A stretch of 21,731 nucleotides of DNA, taken from positions 1 to 21,731 of IMG/VR virus record IMGVR_UViG_3300011271_000088. One strand, written 5' to 3'. The notes beneath the pieces were generated by a model. It saw only the letters and a program-made list of their open reading frames with translations, searched no databases and was not told the DNA's origin. The position numbers and the translations under genes were made by a program. The DNA comes from a virus. Of this stretch, positions 1,020 to 20,351 are shown in pieces (the first letter of the stretch is position 1; each line of letters starts with the position of its first letter).

Positions 1020-4010
1020 CTATACAACACTTAATGTTCCAACACCGTTAATATAAGTAAATGTAGTGTCCGCTGTCGTACATAATATTTTACATGATTG
1101 ACCCACGGCAGACGATGATACAGTTCCCGTAGCTCCAATAGTAGATGAAGTTGATTCAAATATAATCTTTTGTCCTGCATTCTGAGCTATAGTCCATCCA
1201 GAAGCACTTTTACCAACGACTTCAATAATAGAACCAAATGCAGCAGTTGCAGGTAATGTTAATGTTACCAATCCAGCATTATTTGCTACATATCCATTAT
1301 TTACAGACATAGTTGTTGATGCTCCCGTTATTTCATTCCAGGTAAATGAACCGCTCGGACCTGAATCAGAACCTATTGCACCTGTAGATGTATTAATAGT
1401 TACATAATTTTTATTTGCAACCGCAACACCTTGAACACCTGTTAATATAACACCTGCAGATGGAGCTTGAATTGTTGTAGTACTTGAAGCGGTTGTAGAT
1501 CCTAAAGTTACTCCTTTAATAGCAGCACCAGTCCCTATAGATAAAGTTGTTGCAGAAGCATCAGTAGATATGCCAAAAGCACCAGTTCCACTATTAATAG
1601 TCAATGCACCATTAGTTGCTGTAACATTTAATGCTCCCGATCCAGATTGAACCGTAGTAGCAGATGTTGAGTTAGTAGATCCTAGAGTAGTTGTTTTAAC
1701 AGCTCCGCCAGTAGCTATATTAACTGTAGTTGCTGATGCATCTGTACTAATACTCATAGAACCTGTACCAGAATTATGTGTCTGTGCTCCATTTGTACTT
1801 GTTATATTAAGAGCACCACTTCCTGACTGTACTGTAGTAGCTGATGTACTATTAGTAGATCCCAAAGTAACCGTTTTAACAGCACCACCAGTTGCCAGAG
1901 AAACCGTTGTTGCTGATGCATCGGTTGAAAGCCCCAAGGCGCCAGTACCAGAATTACCTGTCCACGTACCATTTGTACTCGTTAACGCTAAAGCGCCACT
2001 TCCACTTTGTACTGTTGTCGCAGAAGTACTATTAACTGAACCTAGAGTTACTCCTTTAACTGCGCCACCTGTAGCAAAAGATACTGTAGTAGCTGAAGCA
2101 TCAGTGCTTATACCAAGAGCACCAGTTCCTGAGTTTATTGTGATAGCACCATTTGTAGCAGTCACATTCAATGCACCTGAACCAGATTGTACGGTAGTTG
2201 CACTTGTTGAATTTGTACTTCCTAAAGTTACACCTTTAACTGCGCCGCCTGTTCCTATAGATAAAGTAGTAGCCGCAGCATCAGTAGATATACCAAAAGC
2301 TCCCGTACCAGAATTATGAGTTTGTGTACCATTGGTTGAAGTTATATTTAATGCACCTGAACCAGATTGGACTGTAGTCGCTGATGTACTATTAGTAGAT
2401 CCAAATGTAGAAGTTTTTATACCAGCGCCTGTACCAATATTAATTGTACTTGTTGTAGCGTCAGTTGCTAAAGACACAGTTCCACCATTAGCAGTTATTC
2501 CTGCAAATGTAAGTGTTTCTGTACTACCAGTTCCACCAAATGATAATCCGGTAGTGCCACCGGTAAATGTAAATGCTGCACCCGTAAGTGCACCACCAGT
2601 GTCACCGGTTATTGAAATAGAAGATGCAGCACCTGCATCAGAACCAATAGCGCCTGTTGCTGTATTAATAGTTACGTAATTTTTATTGGCAACAGCAACA
2701 CCTTGAACACCCGTTAAAGTTACACCACCCGATGGAGCTTGAATTATCGTAGTAGCCGAAGCAGTTGTAGATCCAACAGTTGTAGCATGCGCATTGGCAG
2801 AAGTACCAAGATTAGCACCACCTGTTCCACATGCGATTGTTGAGGTACTCGTTGAGTTAGTTGAACCAACTGTAACCGTTTTAACAGCACCTCCTGTACC
2901 AATAGATAAAGTAGTAGCAGAAGCATCAGTAGATAACCCCAAAGAACCCGTACCTGAGTTTCCTGTCCATGTGCCATTAGTACTGGTCAAAGCAAGAGCT
3001 CCCGAACCAGACTGAACGGTGGTAGCAGAAGTACTATTCGTAGAACCTAAAGTAACTGTCTTAACTGCTCCGCCGGTCGCTAGAGAAACTGTAGTTGCTG
3101 AAGCGTCGGTTGATAAACCAAGTGCTCCTGTTCCTGAATTTCCGGTCCATGTGCCATTAGTACTTGTAAGAGCTAATGCACCACTACCACTTTGAACTGT
3201 AGTAGAAGAGGTTGAGTTAGTACTTCCTAAAGTCACGCCCTTAACAGCACTTCCAGTTCCAAATGAAACTGTAGTAGCCGAAGAATCTGTACTTATACCT
3301 AATGCTCCAGTACCTGAATTTATCGTTAGAGTTCCATTTGTTGATGTAACTGCAAGAGCACCACTACCAGATTGTACCGTTGTAGCACTCGTCGAAGTAA
3401 CTGATCCAAATGTAGAAGTTTTTATACCAGCACCAGTACCAACATTGATTGTACTCGTTGTGGCATCAGTCGCTAAAGATACAGTTCCGCCATTGGCAGT
3501 TATACCGGCGAAGGTTAATGTCTCCGTGCTACCAGCTCCACCAAATAACAATCCAGTCGTACCACCGGTAAATGTAAATGATGTACTCGTAAGCGCACCA
3601 CCTGTATCACCAGTTATTGATATAGAAGATGAAGCGGGTGATTGCCACGAAGGGTCGGCCCCGGTCACTCCCGTTAGAACTTGTCCTGTTAATCCCGCAC
3701 CTAATGAAGTTAATGACCCAGAACTATTACCAACTTGAACGGTATGATCTGTCGTTCCCGTAAGATCAGCCTTTAGGGTTCCTGCGCCATCAGTCCAACT
3801 AATGTTATTACCATTGGTCATCGAAGCTATGACAGGATCGGCCCCAACAGACCCGATAATTAATTGTCCATTTCCAGCTACACCAAGGGGTGTTATAGCA
3901 CCGGTTCCTGAACCAAGTAAAACACCATGATCTGTTAATGTAATTGCACCCGTACCACCTTTATCAACGGTTAAGGGGACTGGATTGGAAAGGGTATATG
4001 ATCCTGCCAT
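1020..4010 (-). CDS. Giant repetitive tail fibre protein with 60-residue repeats
   Basis: This 996-aa Gly/Ser/Thr-rich, nearly Cys-free protein is probably a beta-structured fibre shaft. An N-terminal part (1-125, starting MAGSYTLSNPVPL) resembles the neighbouring 341-aa fibre (GNSSGSLTSLG, GSVGADPV). Two super-repeats follow, at about 127-460 and 462-880. Each opens with SISITGDTGGALT, runs through 60-residue units (three in the first, five in the second; core NSTSATTVQSGSGAL) and closes with GVQGVAVANKNYVTIN. The C-terminal domain (about 885-996, with NNGY, LVTLTLP and IAQNAGQ) matches the C-terminus of the 341-aa protein and could act in folding, trimerisation or host binding. The ribosome binding site TAGGATAA overlaps the stop of the upstream glycine-rich gene. 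The fibre role is inferred from repeats and context; the receptor is unknown. Confidence 0.9.
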   Translation of the reverse strand: MAGSYTLSNPVPLTVDKGGTGAITLTDHGVLLGSGTGAITPLGVAGNGQLIIGSVGADPVIASMTNGNNISWTDGAGTLKADLTGTTDHTVQVGNSSGSLTSLGAGLTGQVLTGVTGADPSWQSPASSSISITGDTGGALTSTSFTFTGGTTGLLFGGAGSTETLTFAGITANGGTVSLATDATTSTINVGTGAGIKTSTFGSVTSTSATTVQSGSGALAVTSTNGTLTINSGTGALGISTDSSATTVSFGTGSAVKGVTLGSTNSTSSTTVQSGSGALALTSTNGTWTGNSGTGALGLSTDASATTVSLATGGAVKTVTLGSTNSTSATTVQSGSGALALTSTNGTWTGNSGTGSLGLSTDASATTLSIGTGGAVKTVTVGSTNSTSTSTIACGTGGANLGTSANAHATTVGSTTASATTIIQAPSGGVTLTGVQGVAVANKNYVTINTATGAIGSDAGAASSISITGDTGGALTGAAFTFTGGTTGLSFGGTGSTETLTFAGITANGGTVSLATDATTSTINIGTGAGIKTSTFGSTNSTSATTVQSGSGALNITSTNGTQTHNSGTGAFGISTDAAATTLSIGTGGAVKGVTLGSTNSTSATTVQSGSGALNVTATNGAITINSGTGALGISTDASATTVSFATGGAVKGVTLGSVNSTSATTVQSGSGALALTSTNGTWTGNSGTGALGLSTDASATTVSLATGGAVKTVTLGSTNSTSATTVQSGSGALNITSTNGAQTHNSGTGSMSISTDASATTVNIATGGAVKTTTLGSTNSTSATTVQSGSGALNVTATNGALTINSGTGAFGISTDASATTLSIGTGAAIKGVTLGSTTASSTTTIQAPSAGVILTGVQGVAVANKNYVTINTSTGAIGSDSGPSGSFTWNEITGASTTMSVNNGYVANNAGLVTLTLPATAAFGSIIEVVGKSASGWTIAQNAGQKIIFESTSSTIGATGTVSSSAVGQSCKILCTTADTTFTYINGVGTLSVV
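1503..2402 (-). repeat. Array B: five 180-bp (60-residue) in-frame tandem repeats
   Basis: Five contiguous units of exactly 180 bp lie at 1503-1682, 1683-1862, 1863-2042, 2043-2222 and 2223-2402. Each encodes GS(T/V)NSTSATTVQSGSGAL at its start and ends in (V/T)TL. Protein similarity between units is high, but DNA identity is much lower because synonymous codons differ throughout. Two sub-types are visible: one with NGTWTGNSGTGALGLS, the others with NG-QTHNSGTG or NG-ITINSGTG in the middle. Confidence 0.92.
2868..3407 (-). repeat. Array A: three 180-bp (60-residue) in-frame tandem repeats
   Basis: Three contiguous 180-bp units lie at 2868-3047, 3048-3227 and 3228-3407 in the same gene as array B. 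A degenerate fourth unit follows (NSTSTSTIACGTGGANLG). The two later units carry the TWTGNSGTG version and the first carries TLTINSGTG. The array precedes the linker ending in GVQGVAVANKNYVTIN that separates the two super-repeats. Confidence 0.9.
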
Positions 4011-4014
4011 GATA

Positions 4015-5031
4015 TTATCCTAATATTTCGTAGACCCAGATTTCTCCACGGCCACCATTCCCGCCGGCACCTGATGAGGTACCTGTTAAAGAACCACCAC
4101 CACCACCGCCTCCGCCCCCAGGTATACCACCATTACCACCTGTCCCCGCAGAACCACCTGTGTGTTGGCCACCACCACCACCGCCGCCAGCGCCACCGAA
4201 AATAGCGCCAGTTACAGGGAAGACAAAGTTAGCACCAGTTCCACCACTAATAGTTCCAGATTCAGTACCGCCAGCACCACCTGCAAACATAACAGTTTGA
4301 TCAGCATTAAGAATATTAGATCCGCCACCTGCAGCACGTTCAGATACAACATCTGCACCTGAACCACCACCACCGTAACCGGCAATATAAATATAATTGG
4401 TATATTGCGTGTAACTATTATTAAAAATTTTTCCTATATCAGAAGCTGCAACGGGGGCAGTATTTGATCCCCTAGAACCATCCCAGGCTCCACTTATAAG
4501 ACTATTAGAACCAGCATTCATATCACCATTATAAAAAAAATTAGAAAGAGTAGCTGGATTGGAAACATTAGATATTCTTACATTATAATTAACCGCTGAA
4601 GAACTTGTTGTTGTTCCTCCGCCGCCTACTAATGATACTCCATTAATACCATTAAGAACTGGTCCCATATGACCAGCTAAAGATTGTCCACCGGCAGTTC
4701 CAGGATTACCATTAGTTAAATTTGCAGCCTGTGCTACTCCACCAGCACCACCAGCACCAATAGTAATAGTTTCGGTAGCGCTAAACATATTAGCAGGCGC
4801 GGCGTATATCATTACATTACCTGCCGATCCACCACCACCACCAGCACTACTTGTAGTAGCTCCTTGGCGACCCGATCCACCACCCGCACCACCATTCCAG
4901 ATTATAAACATAACCTGTTGGGCATTAGCATCCTTAGTCCATGTTCCATTTGCAGTAAACTGCGTAAATTTTACCGTGTTACCACCGCCAGCTAAAGGCA
5001 ATGGCCCCGAAAGAAAATATGATCCTGCCAT
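4015..5031 (-). CDS. Glycine-rich tail fibre / adhesin-like protein (copy 1)
   Basis: This 338-aa protein is the paralogue of the product of 25-1011. It starts MAGSYFLSGPLPLAGGG, a leader nearly shared with the adjacent 996-aa fibre, then has the domain with KFTQFTANGTWTKDANAQQV (about 20-40) and IIWNGGAGGGSGR. Glycine blocks follow, including a run of nine glycines near residue 310, and it closes with GGRGEIWVYEILG. The middle (about 130-215, Asn/Tyr-rich, FFYNGDMNAG, YTQYTNYIYIAGYG) is unlike the other copy and is the best candidate for a receptor-binding loop region. It lies directly after the 341-aa fibre gene, so each glycine-rich gene is paired with an upstream fibre gene. The start has a good AGGAGA site 7 bases upstream. 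The function is inferred from the glycine-rich family and position. Confidence 0.88.
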   Translation of the reverse strand: MAGSYFLSGPLPLAGGGNTVKFTQFTANGTWTKDANAQQVMFIIWNGGAGGGSGRQGATTSSAGGGGGSAGNVMIYAAPANMFSATETITIGAGGAGGVAQAANLTNGNPGTAGGQSLAGHMGPVLNGINGVSLVGGGGTTTSSSAVNYNVRISNVSNPATLSNFFYNGDMNAGSNSLISGAWDGSRGSNTAPVAASDIGKIFNNSYTQYTNYIYIAGYGGGGSGADVVSERAAGGGSNILNADQTVMFAGGAGGTESGTISGGTGANFVFPVTGAIFGGAGGGGGGGQHTGGSAGTGGNGGIPGGGGGGGGGSLTGTSSGAGGNGGRGEIWVYEILG

Positions 5032-6757: not shown

Positions 6758-9358
6758 TTAATCAATAATCCAACCTGTAATAACTACATCTCCATTAAGT
6801 GCGGCTGCACCATTATTCTTTGTATTAACAATAATAGTTCCTGTAGTTTGTGTATTAATACGCTGAGCGGTCATTTGCGCATCATTCGATCCAGCATTAG
6901 AAACTGTAAGCATTACACCAGCTCCTACAACAAAACTACTATCTGTAATAGTAAAGGCCTGTGTTCCTGCAGATGCAGTTGTGAAGCCGGTATATGTAGC
7001 TTTAAAGACGCGAGCATTAATTGTCGCAGTAGCTGTTGGAGAAGCAACTGTTGCAGTAGAAGGTGCAACCGATACGATACCACCTGCTGATAAAACCACT
7101 CCGCCTGAACCGGCTTGAATAGTAGTTGTCGAAGTTGTAGTAGTCGAACCAACTGTAGTTGCGTGGGCATTAGCAGATGTACCAAAGCTAGCACCACCAG
7201 TACCACAAGCAACAGTTGTAATTGAACTACTATTTGTTGAACCCAATGTAACTGTTTTAATTGCACCACCAGTAGCTAAAGAAACTGTAGTTGCAGAAGC
7301 ATCGGTAGATAAACCAAGTGCTCCTGTTCCTGAGTTACCAGTCCATGCACCACCTGTACTTGTAAGGGCAAGTGCTCCACTTCCAGACTGAACAGTAGTA
7401 GCAGAGGTTGAGTTAGTACTACCTAACGTCACTCCCTTAACGCCGCCACCTGTTCCTATAGAAACTGTAGTTGCAGTATTATCCGCAGAAATATTCATTG
7501 CAGCCGTGCCTGAAGTTAGGGCTATAATTCCATTAGCTGCTGCTAAAGATATACCACCAGTTCCAGAAGAAAGCGCTAAACCACCAGCACCATTTGAAGC
7601 CATAATTTGAACGGCATCTACTACTGCTTCGCCGCCCGTAATAACAACAGAACCTGCTGTTGAGTTTACAGTAAGATCGAATGCACCTGTAACAGTAAGA
7701 TTAGAAGCTGCTGCTGCATCAAGTAATAATGCACCCGTAGTGTCTATATCAACACCAGCTGTTCCTGCATTAACATCTATACCACCACCTGCGTTAGAAG
7801 CATTAATACTAATCGCATTAGCTGCTGCTTTGCCACCAGTTAAAATAGCTGATCCAAGAGTTGTGCTTAAGGTAAGATCGGCTGCACCTGTAACGGTAAA
7901 ATGAGATGCGGTTGCTGAATCTAATGCGATACCTGCTGCAGTACTAGCTGCAATTGCTCCAGCAAGAGCATTACCAACGGTAACTGTTCCAGTTGAGGTT
8001 CCTGCATTTATAGTAGTATTTGCGTTTACCGAGCTATTGACATGCGTAGTCCCGCTAAGATTAATCGCAGTAAGAGCATCAGCATTACCACAATTAACCG
8101 TTTTAGTCCCAGTACCGGTTGACATGTTAACAGTATGAGTACCAGAAGTACGATTACCTGTAGCGAGGTTGAGTAAGTTTTGACCAAGTGTAACTCCTCC
8201 TGTAGCAACATTAACTGTCTTAATTGAATCTGCATTAGTAGTTGCACCACCAACACCCAAAGACAACGTATCAGTTGTTGCTGCCGTAACTACAGTTCCG
8301 CCACTAATAGTAGTAGTGCGGGTAGCTGTAGGAGCAATATTACCAATTCCAATAGTAGATGTATCGGCATCTGTGGCGATCAAAAGACCACCTGTACCAG
8401 CACGAATTGCCAATCCACCCGCTGCATCTGAAGCATTAATTACAATAGCATTAGCATCAGCTTCGGTAGCTACAATATTGATAGAAGAACCAGTAGCTGT
8501 AATATCAATATCTTCGCCTGCTGAAGCACCCGCTGCTGTAATATCAATACCACCGATAGTTGATGATATAACGATTGAATCAGCTGCATTTTCACCTGCA
8601 GTGATTGTTACAGAACCTAATGTATTAGCTAGAGCGATATCTTTTGCTGCACCACCTGCGGCTGCAATTGAAATACCACCCGCTGTAGCACTTAAAACAA
8701 CGGCTGTTGCCGAAACTTGTGATGATTCAACATTAACTTGCAAAACACCATCGATATCAACACCACCTACTGTTGATGTGAGACTAATTGCATCTGCATT
8801 AGCTAATCCTGAAACAAGTGCTATACCACCAACATCTGAATGAATATTAATAGATGTTAATGAACTGCCCTGGTCTGCATGCAATTCGATGCCTTCTGCG
8901 GTGCCCCCATCACTATGCAATAGGACTGATGGATTGCCATTAAAAGTAGAAGTTAAACTAATAAGATCAGGTGAAGAAAATGCAATATCACCAACGATTG
9001 TAGTTGTTCCATCAACTGTTAAATCCCCACCAATAGTTACATTACCCGCAGTAACATCCAAATTACCTAAGGTTATTGTAACATCGCCATCTGTCACAAC
9101 TAGGTCACCTGGAGTTACTGTAACGGAAGTAAATGTACCCAGGCCTGACGCAGGTGAAGTTGACCAGGTAGAAACACCACCATGCATACTCGTTAAACAC
9201 CAAACAGTATCTTCTGTGGTATTAACCCACATTGTACCCAATTGTGCTTGGTCTCTATCGCCTGGATCGCGTTGTTCAATAATAGGTTGTGGTGGGATGC
9301 GAACAGTATTACCTGCTCTGTTATAGGTAAAATATGTCTTAGTCTGATTGATTGCCAT
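6758..9358 (-). CDS. Large beta-helical tail fibre protein
   Basis: In this 866-aa protein, residues 1-75 form a non-repetitive head (PPQPIIEQRDPGDRDQ, LGTMWVNTTEDTVWCL, GGVSTW), a motif set common at the start of phage fibres and likely the virion attachment end. Residues 80-130 have short beta repeats (GDLVVTDGD, GNLDVTAGN, GDLTVDGTT). Residues 130-640 hold many degenerate repeats of roughly 25-33 residues with 'ADAISLTSTVGGVDI' character, consistent with a stacked beta-helix shaft. Around 645-770 lies a block shared with the 996-aa fibre, including one full 60-residue unit and TSANAHATTVGSTT. The C-terminal domain (about 775-866, ARVFKATYTGFTTASAGTQ, GDVVITGWIID) differs from the other fibres. 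It starts after AAAGGA, follows a candidate promoter and ends at a hairpin, so it may be its own transcription unit. Confidence 0.9.
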   Translation of the reverse strand: MAINQTKTYFTYNRAGNTVRIPPQPIIEQRDPGDRDQAQLGTMWVNTTEDTVWCLTSMHGGVSTWSTSPASGLGTFTSVTVTPGDLVVTDGDVTITLGNLDVTAGNVTIGGDLTVDGTTTIVGDIAFSSPDLISLTSTFNGNPSVLLHSDGGTAEGIELHADQGSSLTSINIHSDVGGIALVSGLANADAISLTSTVGGVDIDGVLQVNVESSQVSATAVVLSATAGGISIAAAGGAAKDIALANTLGSVTITAGENAADSIVISSTIGGIDITAAGASAGEDIDITATGSSINIVATEADANAIVINASDAAGGLAIRAGTGGLLIATDADTSTIGIGNIAPTATRTTTISGGTVVTAATTDTLSLGVGGATTNADSIKTVNVATGGVTLGQNLLNLATGNRTSGTHTVNMSTGTGTKTVNCGNADALTAINLSGTTHVNSSVNANTTINAGTSTGTVTVGNALAGAIAASTAAGIALDSATASHFTVTGAADLTLSTTLGSAILTGGKAAANAISINASNAGGGIDVNAGTAGVDIDTTGALLLDAAAASNLTVTGAFDLTVNSTAGSVVITGGEAVVDAVQIMASNGAGGLALSSGTGGISLAAANGIIALTSGTAAMNISADNTATTVSIGTGGGVKGVTLGSTNSTSATTVQSGSGALALTSTGGAWTGNSGTGALGLSTDASATTVSLATGGAIKTVTLGSTNSSSITTVACGTGGASFGTSANAHATTVGSTTTTSTTTIQAGSGGVVLSAGGIVSVAPSTATVASPTATATINARVFKATYTGFTTASAGTQAFTITDSSFVVGAGVMLTVSNAGSNDAQMTAQRINTQTTGTIIVNTKNNGAAALNGDVVITGWIID
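7244..7423 (-). repeat. Single 180-bp unit shared with the 996-aa fibre gene
   Basis: One copy of the 60-residue unit (NSTSATTVQSGSGALALTS through ATGGAIKTVTL) sits in the 866-aa fibre gene. It is followed by the same degenerate half-unit and TSANAHATTVGSTT linker found after array A of the 996-aa gene. The order of modules is conserved between the two genes, pointing to module exchange or a common origin. Confidence 0.88.
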
Positions 9359-13012: not shown

Positions 13013-13540
13013 CTAATACTCTAAAAATTCTAAAACTATATATACGGTTGTAAAATTTATAGCCGTATTATTCACCACTATAACATTGGTCGAATTTACT
13101 TGAACTGATATTGTATTACCTCCAGCATCAACATAAGGAATTGGATATGCATCAACTCCGGCAGAATTAGTTGCGGCTCCATAAATAGAAGTAAATTTAA
13201 CAGGGTCTCCCGCAGGAATAGATAAGCCATGAGGCTTTGTGGAAGTTGCTCCCGCTAATATAGGTCCCATGTCTACCACAACTTGATAACCAGGTCGTCT
13301 TTTTAAGGGTGAGTTATCATCTGGATTAAACCACTGGGACCCATTATTAAATACATTTTTAAGATAATAACCCGTTTCTTTATCATTAAGTGAAAGAGCA
13401 ATATTGTTAATTTGCTGATAAAGACGAACTAATAGGTCTTTAAAGTCGGGACTTGCAGGATCAATAGAATCTAAATAACCCATATCCCAAATCTGAGTTG
13501 TCTGTATAAATAAACCAATTCTGTCTTGCTGTGTTAACAT
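13013..13540 (-). CDS. Small tail or fibre-associated structural protein
   Basis: This 175-aa protein begins with a helical part (about 1-65, TQQDRIGLFIQTTQIWDMGY, LLVRLYQQINNIALSLNDKE). After it comes a beta part with WFNPDDNSPLKRRPGYQVVV, a 'TKPHGL' motif (about 105-110) and strands NTISVQVNSTNVIVVNN and TVYIVLEFLEY. Proteins with this helix-then-beta layout and a 'T-x-x-H-G-(I/L)' motif occur beside phage tail hub genes, and I take it as a fibre- or neck-associated protein. The start ATG overlaps the TAA of the hub gene by one base (TAATG), so translation is coupled. Its own TAG stop is part of the next gene's ribosome binding site. Confidence 0.85.
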   Translation of the reverse strand: MLTQQDRIGLFIQTTQIWDMGYLDSIDPASPDFKDLLVRLYQQINNIALSLNDKETGYYLKNVFNNGSQWFNPDDNSPLKRRPGYQVVVDMGPILAGATSTKPHGLSIPAGDPVKFTSIYGAATNSAGVDAYPIPYVDAGGNTISVQVNSTNVIVVNNTAINFTTVYIVLEFLEY

Positions 13541-15813
13541 TATTGAAGCCTTTCTGATGTAGGCATTACATAAAATGTCATAGCATTAAGTTCAAAGTTT
13601 TCTAATGAAACATTAGCGTCAACCATTTGCGTATCTGATAAATACAAATGCAATTGAACATATTCACCATCGGCTTGTAAATAAATTGGGTGCCAAAGAA
13701 CTTCTTGTTGAGATTCAAGGGGATATAATACATAGGGTGATGTTTCTAAAACATTGTTCCCTAAAATAGCACCGGTAGCTTGTCCTTCTGTTACTAATGA
13801 TAATTCAGATGAAGATGTAAAATAATCAACTGTAATAGCACCTGTAGCAGTTTTATCTACTAAGAAATCAACTTTTTGAACAGATATGTTACGTCCTTTA
13901 TCGGCATAGAAATTATACTGCTTAGTTAATATATCAATCCTACTTACTCGAGTAATTGTACCGCCGCCTTGATATGCAAATAAGAATGGTCCGCCAGAAA
14001 CTACAGAGAATGTATTATTATCTATGACTGTTACTTGCCAAATTTTATCATTATATGTGGTTAATCCAACACAGTTTTTAATAAGAACAAAATCACCTGT
14101 TGTTAGATTATGATTAATAACGGTAAATATAGTAGGTGTAATAAAAGGAATATCAGTAATTTGTAAGGCTTGGCAGTTTGAAGAACTTTCAGAATCAACT
14201 AGAAATACAAATCCTTCTTGGTTTCCCGCGATAACATTTCTAAATCGTGCCTGTAAAGGACCAGATACCCATTGATTAGCATTTTCTTGCCATTCCATAA
14301 GAAGATCTTCCCATCGTGTAGGATCGCCTTCGTTCTGCTCTTGGAAATAACCAAAACATGTTATAGAGTCATCATTAATAGCCCATGTTCCCGTTTTATA
14401 ATTAAATACCAATACTTTATTATTGAATGGGAAATCCATACTATCTTGGTCACCATCGGGAAATGACCAATAGATCATCTCTACAAAATAATCACGTATT
14501 CCATAAACACGTTCTGGTTCATTAGTTTCATTATTAAAATCAAATATTTCATCAGGAATTTTATCATCGATACGCTCAACATTAGATCCATTACAAGCAT
14601 GGATACCAACATTGCCTACTCCAATTGCTACTTTATCAAAAGGGATTACAGAAAAGGTAGATTCGGCTCCAAGTTCAGTATTAATTCTTTGCCATGTAAA
14701 TGGATTAGCTTGGTTACCGGTATAAACAATTTCCCACGTAGAGCGCTCAAAATAAACGATAAGACGATCTTTTACGAATTCTGATGTAACTATAGACTCA
14801 GATGTTGGAGCGTCAATGGCAGACCCTTTTCCGGGTATATCTTGGCGCCATGAATCTACACCAACTGGTGAATCTAAAACAGTTGAATAACGAGCGCGTT
14901 GTGCATAATGGCGCTGAGTATAATTTATTCCATCGGGTGATTCGCTTTCCCATGTATTAAGCGCAATCATTCTATTTTTGAAGACAACTAACATGCGGCA
15001 TGTATCTAAAAATATATCTAATACTAATGGGGGTCCTACAACGAGTGAACTTACTTTAGGTCTTAATACCGTCCATGTTGATCCATCAAAATAACGCATA
15101 AAGTTTGGATCATCTTCATCGAAATTTGTTACATAAAGAAAGTTTTGATATTCAAAAGTACCGATACCGTTTGTAGTCCAGAAAAACTGTGAATTACTTC
15201 CAACCCAAGTTGATGCACCAGCTGTTGTTTCAGTACTTAATCGTTCGAATCCCGTAAGACCATATTCATATGCAAACCTAGTATCAAATGCAATAAGTTG
15301 TTCATTATTAATATTAGGTAACTCAAATGAAGCTAAACCCATTACTGGCAATGATGGATAATAGTAAACATCTGTGAAGGCACTTGCTAGGGCAACTAAA
15401 ATTCCTCCAGTAGTACCATTAAATATCATTGTACCACTTCCAGTAGATAATGTAGGAGCTGGCGGACCAGCAACTATAATCACTGTAAATATTTCATTAC
15501 CAATCGAAAATAACTGACCAATGGCAGGAGTTGCAATTGGAATACCTGCAAGTAAGGGAGTCGTTCCTACAAAAGTGCCGAATCCATCAGTTGTTCCAAT
15601 TTTAATTCTTAATCGTGATTGAAGTTGTTCAAAGCCAACCGCAGGAGGATTTGTTGCTTCAAGTAAAGTTCCACCAAATCGTTTACGAATTCGTCCACGA
15701 AATACATAGGCATTTTCAAGACGTGCGAATGCTTCATCGGGTATCATAAAGGGCTTTAAATTTGCCTGCAATCCACCATCGGGAGGCGATATCATAAAAC
15801 GATCTAAAGGCAT
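13540..15813 (-). CDS. Large tail hub / nozzle-like structural protein
   Basis: This 757-aa protein starts with SPPDGGLQANLKPFMIPDEA and FARLENAYVFRGRIRKRFGG, a 'list of variables then offsets' opening common to phage tail hub proteins. The body has many beta segments expected of a propeller: FQNFLYV-type and RLIVYF, SSTWE-like (DRLIVYFERSTWEIVYTGN, about 340-358), IGVGNVGIHACNGSNVERID (about 398-417), and KVLVFNYKTGTWAI (about 468-481). That order resembles the P22 gp10 / crAss-like nozzle class, which closes the tail below the adaptor and carries fibres. Residues about 548-624 look like an FCCH-type beta domain (TVINHNLTTGDFVLIKN). AGGAG lies just upstream of its start. Hub identity is inferred; propeller count is not measured. 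Confidence 0.85.
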   Translation of the reverse strand: MPLDRFMISPPDGGLQANLKPFMIPDEAFARLENAYVFRGRIRKRFGGTLLEATNPPAVGFEQLQSRLRIKIGTTDGFGTFVGTTPLLAGIPIATPAIGQLFSIGNEIFTVIIVAGPPAPTLSTGSGTMIFNGTTGGILVALASAFTDVYYYPSLPVMGLASFELPNINNEQLIAFDTRFAYEYGLTGFERLSTETTAGASTWVGSNSQFFWTTNGIGTFEYQNFLYVTNFDEDDPNFMRYFDGSTWTVLRPKVSSLVVGPPLVLDIFLDTCRMLVVFKNRMIALNTWESESPDGINYTQRHYAQRARYSTVLDSPVGVDSWRQDIPGKGSAIDAPTSESIVTSEFVKDRLIVYFERSTWEIVYTGNQANPFTWQRINTELGAESTFSVIPFDKVAIGVGNVGIHACNGSNVERIDDKIPDEIFDFNNETNEPERVYGIRDYFVEMIYWSFPDGDQDSMDFPFNNKVLVFNYKTGTWAINDDSITCFGYFQEQNEGDPTRWEDLLMEWQENANQWVSGPLQARFRNVIAGNQEGFVFLVDSESSSNCQALQITDIPFITPTIFTVINHNLTTGDFVLIKNCVGLTTYNDKIWQVTVIDNNTFSVVSGGPFLFAYQGGGTITRVSRIDILTKQYNFYADKGRNISVQKVDFLVDKTATGAITVDYFTSSSELSLVTEGQATGAILGNNVLETSPYVLYPLESQQEVLWHPIYLQADGEYVQLHLYLSDTQMVDANVSLENFELNAMTFYVMPTSERLQ

Positions 15814-19400: not shown

Positions 19401-20351
19401 TTATACGTTCTTGGTTACGCGAAGATTGAGTAGCCAAGTGTCATTCAAGAGAACAGGTGCTTCAGCAAATTTATATGCTGTAGAACCGTTCAATGCTAAA
19501 GGTCCATCATAAAGAGGATCACGATAGATAAATTCAGCAGATGCACCATTTTGATAAATGCAGGCATAGGCTTCTCGGGCTGCAATGAAAATATTGTAGA
19601 CGTTTTGACCCAATGCAGATGCATTTGGTGAAACTGACCCGATTGAAGATATCAAGAAGCGAACATTCTTAAATGAACCGATTTCTGAAGGTAAAGTTGG
19701 ATTCTGATTTGGATAGTTATACTTACTAATGAAACCAGTCATATTATCTATGTCTGAGTTCAATCGTGAGTTAGCCATCGCAATATATGATTCACGTACT
19801 GGTGATGTTCCAAATTTCAAATCACCTTCAACGTTATCCAAAATCATGTACGCATTATTAGTAATAAGCGTAGTGATAATATCATCAACGTCAGGTTCAG
19901 ATATATTTGTTGGATTGTCACCATTACCACCAGAAACTGCGTTAACGAATGAAGCTGTTGAAGCTAACATATCGCGTAACAATTGATCTTGTGTTTGACG
20001 TAATGATACACCCAAACGAGCTGCTGCTTCGTTTAAAGCAGGATCTTCGTTGGTTAACACAACTTGTTCGTTTAATACAACGTAGGTGCCATACCATTCA
20101 ATTTTAGCGTCAATATTTATAGCAGAAAGTTGCTGAGCTGGTGGAGTTATACCTGTATTTCCGAGAGGTACCATAGCAGTTGCTAATGGATTGTATCGAC
20201 GGAAACGCATAATATCACCACGATTACGAGGCATTTCTTTCTTCATCGCTGCAACACCATGAATCAATGTAGGTGTAGGTACAGCTAGAAGTTTATAAGA
20301 AAACGCGATCGCAACTGGAGCTGGCAACGAACTGGTCGTAGTAATTGCCAT
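19401..20351 (-). CDS. Major capsid protein, N4-gp56 family
   Basis: This 316-aa protein shows the pattern of N4-gp56-type capsid proteins, which have the HK97 fold. A conserved FRRYNPLATAMVPL segment (about 50-63) leads to the beta/alpha stretch EWYGTYVVLNEQVVLTNEDP (85-104) with ALNEAAARLG (105-114), then the long helix SLRQTQDQLLRDML. Later come VRESYIAMANS (capsid interior), PSEIGSFKNVRFLISS (about 225-240) and an AREAYACIYQNG segment (about 263-274). Length is within the family's usual range. It forms the icosahedral shell after assembly on the scaffold encoded just upstream. It follows a 198-nt leader with duplicated elements, has TAAGGA nine bases before its ATG, and shares a unit with the 323-aa gene. 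Confidence 0.9.
   Translation of the reverse strand: MAITTTSSLPAPVAIAFSYKLLAVPTPTLIHGVAAMKKEMPRNRGDIMRFRRYNPLATAMVPLGNTGITPPAQQLSAINIDAKIEWYGTYVVLNEQVVLTNEDPALNEAAARLGVSLRQTQDQLLRDMLASTASFVNAVSGGNGDNPTNISEPDVDDIITTLITNNAYMILDNVEGDLKFGTSPVRESYIAMANSRLNSDIDNMTGFISKYNYPNQNPTLPSEIGSFKNVRFLISSIGSVSPNASALGQNVYNIFIAAREAYACIYQNGASAEFIYRDPLYDGPLALNGSTAYKFAEAPVLLNDTWLLNLRVTKNV

Follow-up and report, generated by a model that had tools for sequence, protein, structure and literature searches.

The question raised by this locus is why two repeat units of one fibre-like gene encode the same peptide with largely different codons: the copies could be old and tightly held at the protein level, or their DNA could have been driven apart because identical tandem repeats would recombine. 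The window, i.e. the whole analysed stretch of 21,731 nucleotides, carries in its list of open reading frames a repetitive fibre-like protein of 996 aa (fibre A; 1020–4010, minus strand), in which 53 consecutive residues, TTVQSGSGALALTSTNGTWTGNSGTGALGLSTDASATTVSLATGGAVKTVTLG, are encoded alike at 3045–3203 and at 1860–2018, both on the minus strand. The earlier note had reported this pair with about 35 of the 53 codons differing, all of them synonymously, and translation confirmed both its coordinates and its counts: 35 of the 53 codons and 38 of the 159 bases were different, with zero amino acid changes. The number of base changes was 38 rather than 35 because three codons, all for Leu (CTT/TTA, CTT/TTG and TTA/CTT), differed at two positions; such multiple changes had been claimed for Gly as well, but the Gly codons differed only at the third position. 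Nor did the identity span the full 60 residues, as the heading of the earlier note had it, since the complete units agreed in 58 of 60.

The protein identity of this focal pair exceeds chance, while its codon disagreement does not. The expectation was obtained by random synonymous draws from the gene's own codon usage and predicted 22.4 codons in common, compared to 18 out of 57 observed (z -1.3). The longest identical DNA run was 8 nt against 13.7 expected, with a P value of 0.08 that is uncorrected for picking one striking pair out of 45. The synonymous sites were saturated (pS 0.76).

Repeat units of the two fibre-like genes

The unit is 60 residues long and abounds in S, T, G and A; S1, G13, S30, G31, G33, D40, G51, K55 and G60 are almost invariant, while linked variable positions set the unit types: W (ALALT..TWTG..LGLS..SLA), Q (NIT..QTH), V (NVT..ALTI) and others. 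Fibre A contains eight units, all on the minus strand. The W-type units (TWTG) include the two focal members, at 3045–3224 and 1860–2039 (units 3045 and 1860), and another one at 2865–3044; the V-type units (TLTI in the first) are located at 3225–3404, 2040–2219 and 1500–1679, and the Q-type units (QTH in the first) at 2220–2399 and 1680–1859. A second repetitive fibre-like protein from the list of reading frames, fibre B (866 aa; 6758–9358, minus strand), has one good and one poor unit. The good one is of the W-type and lies in register at 7241–7420 (minus strand), a correction to the 7244–7423 given previously; it is a younger duplicate of unit 3045, with 32 of 55 codons the same, a 26-nt identical run and a dS of about 0.62. 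Longer blocks are also duplicated within fibre A, again on the minus strand: the SISITGD block (residues 127–201 at 3408–3632 and residues 462–536 at 2403–2627) with an unsaturated dS of 0.63 between its copies, and the IQAP block (residues 415–462 at 2625–2768 and residues 839–886 at 1353–1496) with a dS of 0.60.

Neither fibre A nor fibre B matched Pfam or PHROG, and for fibre A no sequence match better than E 0.32 was found in the PDB. A predicted three-unit model (pLDDT 83) found no match in the PDB fold search and gave two weak matches to uncultured phages in a viral library, with poor superposition (rmsd above 10). The unit is, thus, a 60-residue fibre repeat without a model in Pfam or PHROG, and it is widespread across phage contigs. 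A recognised fibre or shaft domain was not found in Pfam, PHROG or PDB; the gene order, in which capsid, tail and virion proteins are followed by fibre-like frames, fits the fibre location of tailed phages, and this location together with the composition suggests that the protein serves as a shaft.

Two other genes of the region deserve mention. Fibre A is flanked by glycine-rich paralogues at 25–1011 and 4015–5031 (minus strand), the second of which matched PF21722; stretches of their DNA are 71–78% identical, and the pair is another duplication in the fibre region. A 757-aa virion protein (13540–15813, minus strand; phrog_3287) matched the Pfam family E1_FCCH over residues 567–623 (E 8e-8), a domain of ubiquitin-activating enzymes, which in the virion protein is perhaps a shared small domain.

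Codon agreement within genes and between phages

Selection against DNA repeats would yield a deficit of repeated words, and the opposite was found, so that the reading of the DNA as driven apart fails. Pooling of the 45 unit pairs of the window gave 851 shared codons at common residues against 792 expected. In comparison with synonymous shuffles, which preserve both the protein and its codon composition, repeated 15-mer pairs in fibre A were threefold in excess (63 against 19), as were, even more strongly, the repeated 18-mers (31 against 5.9). The longest exact repeat in this gene was 29 nt with 20.9 nt expected, P being 0.995 for a repeat of at most this length; the identical runs were, therefore, no shorter than chance would make them, which is the outcome that the earlier note had itself named as refuting. 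The picture was similar in a sample of 42 related genes, in which the longest repeat was above expectation in 32 (significantly in 16) and below it in 10, none being significantly below chance at P < 0.05. Fibres A and B tolerate a shared identical run of 26 nt, and runs of 50 and 59 nt are likewise tolerated in relatives. The unit pairs have units in common and are hence non-independent, but neither this dependence, nor assembly bias, nor the use of codon-usage-based expectations turns the excess of repeats into a deficit.

Relatives were obtained by scanning IMG/VR with the fibre and with the unit alignment, which found fibre units in about 45 contigs, mostly phages of 35–40 kb; a sample of 142 units was used for codon comparison. 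The ratio of observed to expected codon agreement was 1.09–1.35 for adjacent units and 1.01–1.25 for other pairs from the same gene, while between genomes it was 1.01–1.04 in every identity class below 90%. In the class of at least 90% identity the between-genome ratio reached 1.33, raised by two pairs of near-identical phages. With these two pairs of phages excluded, the 8,578 between-genome unit pairs had z-scores with a mean of 0.12 and SD of 1.00, which corresponds to independent codon choice. The longest identical runs stood at the 0.60–0.66 percentile of expectation for within-gene pairs and at 0.53 for between-genome pairs. Unit 3045 and a unit of the relative L009, at a protein identity of 98%, have 19 of 58 codons in common with 20.0 expected; since these two units belong to different phages, their codon differences cannot be put down to recombination between tandem copies.

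The major capsid protein (19401–20351, minus strand; PF25209, phrog_1357) served as a single-copy control. One stretch of the capsid, identical in 52 of 53 residues between the relatives L009 and L102, had 14 of 48 codons in common (16.5 expected); the comparison of L100 with L102, with 51 of 53 residues identical, gave 9 of 47 in common (16.0 expected). As the control is randomised alike, random codons at identical residues are the normal state among these phages at such distance. The within-gene unit pairs were not more divergent in codons than the between-genome pairs or the capsid gene, and the view that the pattern is unusual within one phage gene was thus not borne out.

The units are 87–98% identical in phages whose capsids are 35–64% identical, and the best unit pair surpassed the best 60-residue capsid window in identity for 39 of 55 genome pairs, the unit value being the best of several pairs and the capsid value the best of many windows. 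Across genome pairs, the best unit identity was not correlated with capsid identity (Spearman 0.10, P 0.49). A very near relative of the window is the 12.7-kb contig L018 (IMGVR_UViG_3300011269_000018) with a 100% identical capsid, in which a fibre repeat match is absent. Strains with the same fibre DNA, sought to follow short-term change of the repeats, were not found.

Fibre units were also encountered in contigs binned with bacteria. A phage-sized contig of 39,969 bases in a Simkania metagenome-assembled genome (MAG) (L138, JAGXTH010000002.1) carries unit matches, its five units being letter-for-letter identical to those of L117, a phage from IMG/VR. In a Babeliales MAG, units lie on two contigs, both of which break off within the repeats (JAGOPI contigs L139 and L140); among 49 genomes of the phylum of this MAG a good unit match was present only in the MAG itself. 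These finds may hint at hosts among intracellular bacteria, or else result from misbinning. The capsid gene of the relative G007 (L148, 1501–2154 and about 2984–3268, minus strand) is interrupted by about 830 bases, with an opposite-strand frame in the insert (2342–2824, plus strand) that matched LAGLIDADG_1 at the cut-off (PF00961, E 1.4e-4). Split capsid genes also occur in G002, G011/G017, G014 and G015, and no match to Rfam intron models was found.

Age and origin of the focal copies

The duplicates are graded in age. The youngest ones were found in L139 (units 432 and 759, dS 0.06) and L140 (units 103 and 163, dS 0.35), with the reservation that long identical repeats may defeat short-read metagenome assembly, which leaves very young duplicates under-represented and tilts the sample towards diverged ones. 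Duplicates of middle age are those in the window, namely the SISITGD blocks, the IQAP blocks and units 3045 and 7241. The random level of its codon agreement ruled out that the focal pair was duplicated recently. The pair is read here, with a probability of about 0.93, as an old duplicate whose synonymous sites have been saturated by ordinary mutation and whose protein is held by purifying selection; this option of the earlier note, old duplication under tight protein selection, is the one upheld by the saturated synonymous sites, the graded duplicate ages, the conservation of the unit peptides in other lineages and the single-copy control. Units would be gained and lost continually, either by duplication inside the gene or by arrival from other phages. 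The two focal copies would have separated long ago, with their synonymous positions since randomised relative to each other, while purifying selection on the fibre protein, present in a multi-copy shaft, would preserve the amino acids. The likeness of DNA would then be lost by ordinary synonymous drift, leaving young copies near-identical, middle-aged ones half way and old ones saturated. The steps up to this drift are backed by the graded ages and by the controls. The constraint itself probably comes from the fold and assembly of the multi-copy shaft, with the types W, Q and V acting as putative functional modules. A broader proposal, which we regard as tentative and rather doubtful, is that many phages share a small and very slowly changing alphabet of shaft units (W, Q, V and others), in which whole modules are duplicated and perhaps exchanged and are kept more strictly than the capsid in order to fit their neighbours in the shaft.

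Among the other explanations, active separation of the unit DNA by selection against homologous recombination has in its favor the low values of the focal pair itself and of a few relatives, such as L092 (longest repeat of 11 nt against 14.1 expected, P 0.075), but the excess of repeats over synonymous shuffles in fibre A and in the 42-gene sample, the higher run percentiles within genes than between genomes, codons that are just as random between genomes and in the capsid gene and the tolerated runs of 26–59 nt leave it with hardly any probability. As a general process here it is refuted; a strictly local effect on single pairs is possible. Scarcely more probable is convergence, in which the peptide is reached repeatedly from a few kinds of residues at narrowly constrained positions. 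Indeed, over 117 full units many of the 60 positions hardly vary at all, and those that do mostly use two to four small residues, but 40 between-genome pairs had an identity of at least 54 of 60 residues against about 0.05 expected under independent positions, so that the unit types are real lineages or structurally coupled sets and site-independent convergence as the sole cause is rejected. Moreover, differences at many linked positions set the types apart, a pattern better fit by descent, to which structural coupling could add.

An origin of the focal units by recombination from different phages, each with its own codons, instead of duplication inside the gene is unlikely, although it deserves more weight than any other of these alternatives; it bears on where the copies came from and does not conflict with saturation and protein selection. 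The occurrence of the same unit types in phages with capsids 35–65% identical to that of the window speaks for it, as does the independence of the best unit identity from capsid identity, and it predicts equally random codons. However, of the 8,578 pairs of units from clearly different phages only 1 had a z above 4, i.e. no recent transfer was caught, and the focal pair is too old to be dated, which makes such an origin indistinguishable from an old internal duplication. It is also improbable, to a degree between this and convergence, that the pattern is partly a sampling effect produced by the collapse of identical repeats in short-read assembly. Within genes the identical runs between compared units never exceeded 59 nt and several contigs end inside a repeat-bearing frame (e.g. 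L120, L126, L131, L139 and L140), as such survivorship would have it, but it would merely hide young copies and could not randomise codons at 53 identical residues, and saturated pairs were equally common between genomes and in capsid genes.

Significance and comparison with known systems

The codon observation was thus confirmed and its cause appears ordinary, while the unit types recur across phages and are often better conserved than the capsid. A tempting claim of natural codon scrambling against recombination was removed by a direct test, which is reusable: repeated DNA words are compared with synonymous shuffles, with pairs from different genomes and a single-copy gene serving as controls. 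In such phages, old duplicates under protein selection should show identical residues with different codons.

The gene resembles repetitive tail fibres of tailed phages in its late position in the structural gene cluster, in its S-, T-, G- and A-rich repeats and in its glycine-rich neighbours (PF21722 and a weak match to phrog_863, 'tail fiber assembly'), and differs from them in a 60-residue unit that lacks a match in Pfam, PHROG and PDB. A literature search found no direct precedent for protein repeats whose codons have diverged under selection against recombination. Tandem repeats of spider silk genes are reportedly homogenised within the gene (PMC3933166); the fibre shares with them the nature of a structural protein with tandem repeats, but most of the phage copies are synonymously saturated and homogenisation is weak. 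Persi et al. (2016; PMC5120217) report conservation of single repeats between species and divergence of the copies inside a protein, with intra-protein repeats diverging in amino acids faster than orthologous ones. The phage units are similar in the purifying selection on single units between lineages and in the duplication inside the gene; in contrast to those repeats, some copies here are 97% identical in amino acids across saturated synonymous sites.
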